From Paracoccaceae bacterium (GTDB taxonomy: Bacteria; Pseudomonadota; Alphaproteobacteria; Rhodobacterales; Rhodobacteraceae), in assembly GCA_024742455.1 (NCBI GenBank), contig JANSYL010000001.1:248001-312000 (forward strand): 64,000 nucleotides of DNA. Reading direction: 5' to 3'. This document shows positions 17,136 through 57,896 of the stretch, one piece after another (the first letter of the stretch is position 1; each line of letters begins with the position of its first letter). The notes under the pieces are model-generated. The model worked only from the letters and a program-made list of their open reading frames with translations. It had not been told where the DNA came from and made no database searches. The translations under genes were made by a program, and so were the position numbers.

Positions 17136-17588
17136 ATGTCCAGCGACAGCGATCTGATCAAGCTCTATTCGCAGCGCATTCTGGCGCTGGCGGCGGATAT
17201 CCCGCATGCCTCCCGGCTTGCCGACCCGCAGGTCAGCGTGCGCAAACGTGCGCCCGTCTGCGGCTCGACCGTGACCGTGGACCTGGATGTGAAGGACGGG
17301 GTGATCACCCGTTTCGGGCAGGACGTGAAAGCCTGCGCCCTGGGCCAGGCTTCGGCCGCGCTGATGGGGGCGTCGATCCTAGGCCGCAGCCGGGCCGAGG
17401 TCGAAGCCGCGCGCGACGCCTTGGCCGAGATGCTGAAATCCGGCGGGCCGGGGCCCGGCGCGCCGTTTTTCGGCTACGAGGTGCTGAAACCGGCGCGCGA
17501 CTACCGCAACCGCCATGCCTCGATCATGCTGTCGCTCGAGGCGGCCGCCGAAGCCATGGAAAAGGCCGAACGCGCCGCCTGCGCCTGA
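17136..17588 (+). CDS. Iron-sulfur cluster assembly scaffold, IscU/SufU-like
   Basis: A 150-residue protein of the NifU N-terminal/SufU superfamily. Cysteines in APVCGSTV and VKACALGQAS match the first two cluster or zinc ligands. The third ligand region reads YRNRHASIMLSLEAA without a cysteine, so it is a divergent member. It may accept or transfer clusters, but no isc or suf gene is adjacent. The start at 17136 is chosen because the homologous region begins there and AAGGCAAAG lies upstream. Confidence 0.8.
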   Translation: MSSDSDLIKLYSQRILALAADIPHASRLADPQVSVRKRAPVCGSTVTVDLDVKDGVITRFGQDVKACALGQASAALMGASILGRSRAEVEAARDALAEMLKSGGPGPGAPFFGYEVLKPARDYRNRHASIMLSLEAAAEAMEKAERAACA

Positions 17589-17596
17589 CCGCCTGC

Positions 17597-17636
17597 AAAA
17601 AAAAAACCGCCGCTCACCCGGATGGGGTGGCGGCGG
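17597..17636 (-). terminator. Strong Rho-independent terminator (minus strand)
   Basis: On the minus strand a 12-bp GC-rich stem with one bulge (17607-17619 with 25-36 of the same block) is followed by ten consecutive T (the A-run at 17597-17606 on the plus strand). It lies 132 bases behind the stop of the small membrane protein gene at 17768 and most simply ends that transcript. It can also block readthrough into the Fe-S scaffold gene. Confidence 0.8.
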
Positions 17637-17767
17637 AAGTGTGCGTGTCCATCGGCAGGGCGGGCGCCGGTCGGGGCAGACGAGGCGCCAGAGGCAGTGA
17701 GACAGGCGGGTTTGAAACCAACCCCGCCATGGCCCGTGCCGGACCGCAGGCAGAAAGCGAAAAACCG

Positions 17768-17887
17768 TCAGATCAGACCGGGCAGATGCAACAGGCCCAG
17801 GGTGAATACCGCCAGCGCGACGACACCCAACGCGTCGTAGAACAGCGTGCTGCGCGAGCGGGAGATGATGTCGGCGATGCGGGTCAT
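17768..17887 (-). CDS. 39-residue membrane protein behind an SOS box
   Basis: The frame reads MTRIADIISRSRSTLFYDAL followed by a hydrophobic segment to the end (about residues 18-39, LGVVALAVFTLGLLHLPGLI). The N-terminal half is basic and amphipathic, so a single-pass inner-membrane protein is likely. GGAG lies 10 bases before the ATG. A LexA-type site sits 61 bases upstream and a strong terminator lies downstream, so it looks like its own transcription unit between recG and the Fe-S gene. No family is recognised. Small SOS-induced membrane proteins that stop division (SidA in Caulobacter) are a functional precedent, not a proven homologue. Confidence 0.7.
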   Translation of the reverse strand: MTRIADIISRSRSTLFYDALGVVALAVFTLGLLHLPGLI

Positions 17888-17948
17888 GGAAACTGCTCCG
17901 TGATCTTGGTGTTGACCCTTTGTTCTCACTTTTCCTGGCCCAATGCAA

Positions 17949-17963
17949 GAACATTTTTAGAAC
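17949..17963 (-). promoter_or_regulatory. LexA (SOS) box, GTTC-N7-GTTC
   Basis: On the minus strand the sequence is GTTCTAAAAATGTTC, an exact match to the direct-repeat LexA box of alphaproteobacteria. A further GTTC lies 6 bases upstream (17970-17973). The site is 61 bases before the ATG of the 39-residue protein and within the gap behind recG. No strong sigma-70 hexamers are evident around it. Confidence 0.7.
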
Positions 17964-17989
17964 AAAGCGGAACAAAAGGGGCTTGACGG

Positions 17990-22337
<4,348 letters not shown>

Positions 22338-56861: not shown

Positions 56862-57896
56862 CTAACGCGCCGGGCGGGAAAGGGAAGCCGCCTGTCCCGA
56901 CGGTGGTTTGGCGCGGGGCTGCGGACGTGTGGGGATTTCCTTGAGCAGGCCGCCGACCCCCATCGCGGCGATATCGCCGGAACTGACCGGGATACCGCAG
57001 GCGATCCGTTCCAGCACCCAGTCGGCGCCGTTCAGCGCAGGGGACCGCGCGCAACCGGGCAGCCCGATCACCGGGCGCGGCCCAAGCCTGCCCAGCACCA
57101 GCAGGTTGCCCGGATCGACCGGCATCCCGAACCGCGTGACCTGTCCGCCCGCCCGCACCAGCGCGGCCGGGGCCACATCGGCGATGTCGGAGGTGGCCGA
57201 GCCGGTCAGCACCAGCACGAGATCGGCGCGGCAGCGGCCAAGCGCGTCTGCCAGCGCGTCTTCGTCATGGGGCACATGGAGGGTTTCACCGGCCCTAAGG
57301 CCCAGGCGCGTGACCCGGTCCCAGACGGCAGTGATGCCCTTGTCGCTGCGGTCGGGGCTGCCCGGCACCTCGGTCACGACCAGGTCGGCATCCCGCAGCA
57401 CCGGGGCGGCGCGCCGCATCGCGCCTGTCGCATGGACCATCGCGGCCTCCAGCGCACGGGCGTTCACGGCGTAGGAAATGATCTTGACGGTGGCCACCAT
57501 CATGCCGGTTTCGACCCGCTGCCATTGCGGCAGGGTGGCCAGCGTGATCATCGGATCGACCGCGTTGAGCGCGGCGATGGCGTCGGGCGAAAGGGCGATC
57601 AGGCCGGGCCCCGTCGCGCGGATATTGGCCCGCCCGGTAAAGGCGGCATCGACGGCCAGCCCGGTCCGGTCGTCCGGCACAAGGGCGGATGCAAGTCGTG
57701 CTGCGGCGGTATTCTCATCCACGTCGCCGGGGTCGGGGCAGGCGGCGATGACCGGGTCATGACCTGCGGCACGCAGTTTCGATATGTGATCGGCACCCAG
57801 AACCTGCCCCTTGCGCAGGCGCCCGCCGGGCAGGGCGACGGAATGGGCCAGGATCGCGCCCTCGGCCGCATCGAGGGGCAGCGGGCCGAACCTCAT
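56862..57896 (-). CDS. Molybdopterin-binding (MoCF-fold) protein
   Basis: A 344-residue protein. It begins [20 protein letters not shown] with a [12 protein letters not shown] segment, then a MoCF-like domain (about 170-320) showing [21 protein letters not shown] and [14 protein letters not shown]. Relatives often carry an extra C-terminal nucleotidyltransferase domain for molybdopterin cytidine dinucleotide synthesis, absent here. A role in cofactor maturation for the neighbouring enzyme is inferred. It overlaps xdhC by four bases. Confidence 0.82.

Follow-up and report, generated by a model that had tools for sequence, protein, structure and literature searches.

A gene behind recG in Rhodobacteraceae with a LexA-type operator, a small predicted membrane protein and a structured 3′-UTR RNA that may pair with the ftsZ start

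Behind recG in the bacterial family Rhodobacteraceae lies a conserved gene with LexA-type boxes at its promoter, a small frame whose protein product is under constraint at the amino acid level, and a 3′ untranslated region (UTR) that holds a structured RNA with exposed stretches matching the start of ftsZ, the main cell-division gene. We propose that it is a LexA-controlled division-arrest gene with two outputs, in which the RNA would repress ftsZ and the membrane protein would act on the division machinery, a reading to which we give slightly less than even weight. The existence of a functional RNA in the 3′ UTR is highly probable, whatever its target. The gene was noticed in a stretch of 64,000 nucleotides, referred to here as the window, for which an earlier note had described a small SOS-controlled membrane protein that might inhibit division. 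The SOS operator and the small membrane protein of that description are upheld by their conservation, but the structured RNA in the 3′ UTR had been overlooked; lying just outside the segment described, this conserved RNA may be the real brake on division.

Results

Layout of the locus

The elements of the locus in the window, all on the minus strand, are as follows.

17990..20083, minus strand: recG, the conserved upstream neighbour (NCBIfam RecG, 1072.9 bits; upstream in 51 of 52 protein-found loci)
17970..17973, minus strand: extra GTTC half-site, N6 upstream of the box (read from the sequence; in 44 of 51 protein-found loci)
17949..17963, minus strand: LexA-type box GTTC-N7-GTTC (box start 62–131 nt before the start codon in relatives)
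17911..17925, minus strand: second site GAAC-N7-CAAC, inverted, imperfect and LexA-like, near the expected transcription start
17768..17887, minus strand: frame of the small predicted membrane protein, 39 amino acids plus stop (conservation, pN/pS 0.29, AlphaFold2)
17637..17763, minus strand: structured 3′-UTR RNA, with a closing stem and three C-rich-loop hairpins in relatives (models R1 and R2, covariation)
17747..17754, minus strand: UCUGCCUG motif before the closing stem, its last letters inside the stem (exact in 60 of 111 UTRs)
17597..17636, minus strand: intrinsic terminator, a G+C hairpin followed by ten T at 17606..17597 (sequence)

The frame (17887..17768) translates to MTRIADIISRSRSTLFYDALGVVALAVFTLGLLHLPGLI and its ATG is preceded by GGAG, with the box GTTCTAAAAATGTTC at 17963..17949 ending 61 bases before the ATG, and in these respects, as in the position behind recG, the earlier description is borne out. 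The ten-T terminator that it reported is likewise present after its G+C-rich hairpin, but it does not directly adjoin the frame, the gap from the stop codon being ∼160 bases. A terminator was recognised in 111 of 127 unique loci (137 before ten duplicates were removed), the T run ending at a median of 182 nt past the first base of the stop codon.

Conservation and distribution

Taken by itself, the window holds GTTC-N7-GTTC no more often than chance (one seen, 1.47 expected in shuffles). A spurious frame next to a chance box would agree with one box per 64 kb; we nevertheless discount it almost completely, since it is refuted by the conservation described here, by pN/pS and by RNA covariation. 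The earlier note had named lack of conservation of the frame or the box in related genomes as grounds for giving up its reading, and both turn out to be conserved. When the 39 residues were used as query, 29 of 61 genomes, the window's own among them, gave a match (E up to 1, some by chance), and a protein profile built from a 25-row alignment matched 356 of 394 Rhodobacteraceae genomes, nearly always once (E up to 0.01, a threshold at which ∼4 of the 356 may be chance). Five profile matches were found in a class-wide draw of 385 alphaproteobacterial genomes, all within Rhodobacteraceae; such draws may contain further Rhodobacteraceae lacking a match, and the firm part of this result is the absence of matches outside the family. 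Among 52 unique loci found by protein, the box lies within 200 nt of the start in 51 (the exception being L036) and recG lies upstream on the same strand in 51 (the exception being L029). Because frame and box are conserved in relatives, their co-occurrence in the window is not due to chance.

The gene can also be reached through its promoter. A pattern of promoter letters only, run over 84,980 species, found at least 119 stretches. Of the 80 loci among the matches listed, 79 carry the frame and 78 follow a recG on the same strand, L144 and L135 being cut by the locus end. By name we take these loci to be Rhodobacterales, apart from some with broader names such as Alphaproteobacteria and, once, Pseudomonadota. 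Six loci (L031, L034, L035, L037, L038 and the truncated L144) are without a family match.

Twenty family genomes in which the frame was not detected were searched for the promoter, and 17 of these have no box with −35 element within three mismatches. In G022 (locus L213) a promoter one mismatch off stands behind recG and is followed by a diverged frame that the profile missed, so that 356 of 394 is an undercount; behind the box and −35 element of the other two genomes no family frame was found. Judging by L213, the family is wider than counted. In Paracoccus saliphilus (L114) the promoter is kept while the frame is much diverged (34 amino acids as called, with a TTG start, E 4e-4).

The operator and LexA control

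The pattern GTTC-N7-GTTC has 102 matches in the window's genome and its backwards-read form has 33. Among 20 box places chosen by eye, mostly for A+T-rich spacers, nine adjoining proteins were named: by NCBIfam the boxes adjoin recA (L199), lexA (L201), uvrA (L198), a uvrD/pcrA-type helicase (L191) and gyrA (L209), and one, facing a ferredoxin-like frame, overlaps an error-prone polymerase gene in its end region. Two more adjoining genes, both without an NCBIfam match, are presumably imuB and mmcB, which they resemble. The remaining places are not recognisably at SOS genes. The lexA site is a triple repeat, GAAC-N7-GAAC-N7-GAAC. The enrichment across the genome and the position beside core SOS genes make it very likely that GTTC-N7-GTTC is the SOS box of this organism. 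The box near gyrA was unexpected.

Alignment of 126 loci gave the consensus GTTC.CaAAT-GTTCT.AaAAA-GTTC-TTTACa, followed by A.aTGAGAACAAA..ggCAACA. Because the sets of 127 and 126 loci include loci chosen by the promoter pattern, counts of the box, the −35 element and GAAC on them are circular, and these counts were therefore repeated on the 52 protein-found loci. There, TTTAC or TTGAC directly follows the box in 43 of the 51 loci with a box; the window is not among the 43, its −35 element differing from the family type. The additional GTTC six bases upstream is present in 44 of 51, GAAC stands at its commonest downstream offset in 46 of 51, and CAAC follows that GAAC at N7 in 45 of 51. From this arrangement we infer that GAAC-N7-CAAC and the main box may form one tight LexA switch. 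Of the genomes compared, all 20 that carry the gene have lexA, as do 16 of the 20 that lack it; the four family genomes lacking a lexA match (G008, G028, G032 and G190) lack the gene too, two of the four being only 74% and 82% complete. Read-through from recG as the sole means of expression was rejected, given that the gene's own promoter is conserved.

The small protein

The frame has a pN/pS of 0.29 over 20 independent pairs of relatives, and its amino acids are therefore under purifying selection. AlphaFold2 predicts helices at residues 3–10 and 12–38 (mean pLDDT 85, pTM 0.45), and a 19-residue stretch with hydropathy above 1.6 is present in 124 of 126 members, consistent with the single membrane helix that had been read from the window. 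The basic N-terminus described with it is present in the window but is no general feature of the family, the net charge ahead of the helix being positive in 72 of 126 members. No family was found for the protein in Pfam or NCBIfam. By prediction, then, this is a single-pass small membrane protein behind a LexA-type operator.

Such a protein could be a membrane-active toxin of the TisB/DinQ type, lowering membrane potential and growth under SOS. Its size, its single predicted helix and the SOS-type operator would all suit that role, which we nevertheless think improbable for a gene that is mostly single-copy, chromosomal and held at a fixed site across the whole family. Most toxin–antitoxin genes are not known to show a fixed-site, single-copy, family-wide chromosomal pattern of this kind.

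The structured RNA in the 3′ UTR

The ∼160 bases that separate the stop codon from the terminator fold into an RNA of three hairpins, with covarying stems and C-rich loops. Counted over the 111 UTRs for which a terminator was recognised, CTGTCCC is present 112 times where shuffles give 4.6; for CTGCCTG the figures are 136 and 5.4, and for TCTGCCTG 71 and 1.0. The UTR cores are more stable than their shuffles (mean z −2.09, with 56 of 109 below −2), and a three-way branch is predicted in 65 of 109 cores as compared with 18% of shuffles. The window's own core has a z of −1.4 and two branches instead of three, the first hairpin being degenerate in its genome.

A covariance model, R1, was built from ten related UTRs with its structure drawn from the fold of L011. 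Of 100 sources that had no part in its training, 78 match it, the window included (E up to 1), and the 77 matches besides the window all begin −6 to 77 nt from the end of the frame and on its strand. The window, not used in training, scores 25.2 bits (E 4.4e-4). In the alignment of these 78 sequences all 30 pairs change on both sides, with 433 cells so changed against 119 ± 9 in shuffles, and 87.9% of cells are paired against 36–45% in slid controls, figures that come from a model-fitted alignment and thus lean towards the structure. No usable consensus fold emerged when the 3′ UTRs were aligned with MAFFT by sequence alone. Under strict filters R1 was found in 37 of 120 genomes, and in a genome-wide search it missed the window's own.

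A second model, R2, from 47 sequences including the window, has a single match in each of 113 of 248 family genomes and three matches in a class-wide draw of 190, all three in Rhodobacteraceae; the window, here part of the training set, scores 44.5 bits. The position of the frame was available for 64 of the 113 positive genomes, and in all 64 the RNA lies directly behind the frame on the same strand, starting −4 to 62 nt from its end. Given that R1 found 37 of 120 and R2 113 of 248 genomes, many divergent members of the RNA family are still missed. A second, weak R2 match in the window (57767–57895, minus strand, 20.5 bits, E 0.0086) is probably due to chance.

A known Rfam RNA was rejected, as nothing in Rfam 15 exceeded the gathering threshold in the window (17400–18200) or in six relatives. 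A sub-threshold match to the Yersinia RNA Ysr141 in one relative (L042, 118–355, minus strand; 37.4 bits, threshold 196) falls, by its position, within the coding part of recG. We also considered whether the 3′ loops pair with the start of the gene itself, and rejected this because a GAGGCA match to the 5′ UTR of some relatives is, as judged by eye, lost in others.

The structure bears on what the active product of the gene is. Should this be the protein, inhibiting late division proteins in the manner of SidA, the 3′ structure would do no more than protect or time the mRNA. The single predicted membrane helix, the LexA-type operator and the purifying selection all accord with this, as does the precedent of SidA, described as an SOS-induced inhibitor of FtsW (PMC4211646). 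A mere stabiliser, on the other hand, would have no need of loop motifs far above shuffles or of covarying stems, and the relation to SidA is a likeness by description; we consider an inhibitory protein with a purely auxiliary UTR distinctly unlikely.

Complementarity to the ftsZ start

The nature of the loops pointed to ribosome-binding sites as partners, and the Klebsiella RNA DinR made ftsZ the first candidate, which is also the sole target gene that was tried. Its start was taken from 30 genomes with the gene, from the class-wide draw (which added the family member G233) and from 20 genomes without the frame. In the class-wide draw ftsZ was found in 39 genomes and 30 loci were compared, 28 of them outside the family; L250 and L293 (no recognised start) and G008 (no ftsZ match) are left out of the counts. 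All 31 genomes of the set with the gene carry the frame and one of them, G003, is without an RNA match.

The consensus ACAGGCGGACAG-N3-5-AUG is exact at the ftsZ start in 18 of 31 genomes with the gene, one of 18 family genomes without it and none of 27 other alphaproteobacteria; CAGGCGGA lies within 24 nt of the start in 30 of 31, six of 18 and none of 27, and GGA[CT]AG is present in 22 of 31, two of 18 and one of 27, in each case with the qualification that Fisher tests on these counts ignore phylogeny, that several of the gene-less genomes are divergent lineages, and that the rule for choosing starts counts GGCG and GCGG among others and so is mildly biased towards the motif. The Rhodobacteraceae ribosome-binding region of ftsZ, with its consensus ACAGGCGGACAG, differs from that of the 27 other alphaproteobacteria.

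The UCUGCCUG motif of the RNA and CAGGCGGA offer eight contiguous possible pairs, one of them G-U, and CUGUCC offers six with GGACAG. In the window's genome UCUGCCUG can pair with CAGGCGGA at the ftsZ start (L238), but the RNA lacks CUGUCC, so that only one of the two motifs is present there. The leader itself is unusually conserved: in gap-free comparisons anchored at the start codon, its best 12 nt carry 11.2 bits against 4.6–7.0 for recG, ligA, hisI and the small frame, although over the full 24 nt the recG leader, which overlaps ligA, reaches 12.7 bits against 14.3 for ftsZ. Within the ftsZ frame, the glycine of MPG is encoded by GGA or GGG in 18 of 22 cases, as compared with 12.7% elsewhere in ftsZ and 34% at codons 5–13 of sampled genes. 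This codon sits opposite the second U of CUGUCC, and the bias is as would be expected if GGRCAGGA pairs with UCCUGUCC, a motif of which just 23 of 111 UTRs hold an exact copy.

Judged by pairing energy alone, ftsZ does not stand out. With gene starts that are rough calls, 11 of 304, 21 of 315 and 14 of 310 sampled genes in three genomes equal or better the duplex energy of the 5′ motif, which places ftsZ in the top 4–7%, and for the sum of the two best segments the corresponding numbers are 54 of 304, 27 of 315 and 72 of 310. GGA[CT]AG precedes 5 of 304, 5 of 315 and 6 of 310 sampled genes. When three genomes whose ftsZ lacks GGACAG were inspected by eye, RNA and ftsZ showed no changes that compensate for each other. 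The G-U pair, the absence of visible compensation and shared ancestry weaken the case for ftsZ and, since the duplex of UCUGCCUG with CAGGCGGA keeps its wobble, the perfect complement may be another mRNA.

An alternative is that the 3′ RNA regulates in trans, or titrates an RNA-binding protein as a sponge, with ftsZ not its main target, the ftsZ leader conserved for reasons of its own and the C-rich loops matching any G-rich ribosome-binding site. The unspecific energy ranking and the wobble in the main duplex are consistent with this, and the repeated, near-identical loops recall multi-target RNAs such as sX13, as that RNA is described (PMC3771888). We think it unlikely on the whole, because the ftsZ motif goes together with the gene, the leader is unusually conserved in its best 12 nt and the MPG glycine codon is biased. 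On present sequence evidence we rate ftsZ as the target of the 3′ RNA at a little under one half.

Discussion

Our results suggest how the gene may work. DNA damage would lift LexA from the promoter, whose operator covers the −35 region and whose second, imperfect site lies close to the start point. The resulting transcript, of ∼330 nt, would end at the strong terminator and encode a 40-amino-acid protein with one membrane helix. Its 3′ UTR would fold into the three-hairpin RNA, possibly after processing, and UCUGCCUG and CUGUCC would pair with the ribosome-binding region of ftsZ (ACAGGCGGACAG), possibly also with the early ftsZ codons around MPGQ, thereby lowering FtsZ synthesis. The membrane protein would probably act at the inner membrane on the division machinery. 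That one LexA-controlled transcript arrests division at both levels, its RNA blocking ftsZ translation at the co-conserved site and its 40-residue protein acting on the divisome, is a tentative reading on which we lean somewhat to the negative. The window's own RNA is a poor member of the family for such a model (25.2 bits with R1, z −1.4, no CUGUCC).

A role in division for the small protein gene, as the earlier note had supposed, is plausible, and the 3′-UTR RNA, through its complementarity to the ftsZ start, would provide a more specific, though indirect, link to division than the one drawn there. The gene is matched in about nine of ten sampled genera and has neither a Pfam or NCBIfam family nor an above-threshold Rfam match. 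If the proposed mechanism is correct, abundant marine and freshwater bacteria, producers of gene-transfer agents among them, would gain a defined checkpoint through which FtsZ synthesis is tied to DNA damage, and a LexA-controlled dual-function RNA would have been kept by covariation across a bacterial family. Were arrest to occur at both levels, the gene would fill the place of the missing division arrest in Rhodobacteraceae, as a counterpart of SulA and SidA made up of a protein and an RNA. Even with a target other than ftsZ, the locus would be a widespread, unannotated pairing of an SOS-type protein and an RNA that is directly testable.

Among the entries listed by a literature search, mostly outside subscription journals, there was no publication on this gene and no SOS division inhibitor for Rhodobacteraceae; recG is not named in the main text of the study of LexA in D. 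shibae (PMC6473078). The closest parallel in arrangement is described in Klebsiella pneumoniae, where DinR is cut from the 3′ end of the LexA-controlled dinI mRNA and represses ftsZ; there DinI is a RecA modulator, and DinR depends on Hfq and has a Klebsiella-specific pairing stretch (PMC10907235). Both loci place a small-protein mRNA under LexA-type control and a 3′ RNA at the ftsZ ribosome-binding site so as to block division, an action on ftsZ shown for DinR and predicted here, whereas the present gene is set apart by a predicted membrane protein and by an RNA with several covarying hairpins that is shared across a bacterial family (PMC10907235). The RNA element reported here is conserved and lies in the 3′ UTR of an mRNA with a LexA-type operator, but the frame upstream of it encodes a 40-amino-acid predicted membrane protein in place of DinI.

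We know of no 3′ RNA for SidA. The SidA protein of Caulobacter is described as having 29 amino acids, being SOS-induced and located in the inner membrane, and binding and inhibiting FtsW (PMC4211646, PMC12700426). From that description, the product of the present gene is similarly a very small predicted membrane protein under a LexA-type operator in an alphaproteobacterium; it differs in having 40 amino acids rather than 29 and in its profile, which is without a match outside Rhodobacteraceae in the 385-genome draw (PMC4211646). Within the same family as our gene, the 67-nt RNA UdsC of Rhodobacter sphaeroides is reported to derive from the 3′ UTR of a hypothetical-protein mRNA, as our RNA would, and to be RpoHII-dependent with rpoHII as target; identity of the two loci was rejected on promoter and size as they are described (PMC9779115, PMC8625941). 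For none of DinR, sX13 and SidA is membership of the present locus shown.

RNAIII joins a short coding frame to a structured RNA that acts on ribosome-binding sites, in another lineage and under other control. Likened by description, the present gene shares with it a short frame and a structured RNA with C-rich loops, loops of this kind being reported for RNAIII of Staphylococcus aureus (PMC3771888). The Xanthomonas RNA sX13 (RF02232) is described as an unstructured 5′ region followed by three stems, with C-rich apical loops that act on G-rich start regions, and our RNA resembles it in the unstructured 5′ region, the three stems and the C-rich loops; sX13 is, unlike ours, a free-standing small RNA with other loop sequences (CCCC/CCCCC), for which we met no mention of SOS control (PMC3771888). 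One relative gave a weak Rfam match to sX13, at 24.2 bits (threshold 50, E 0.7).
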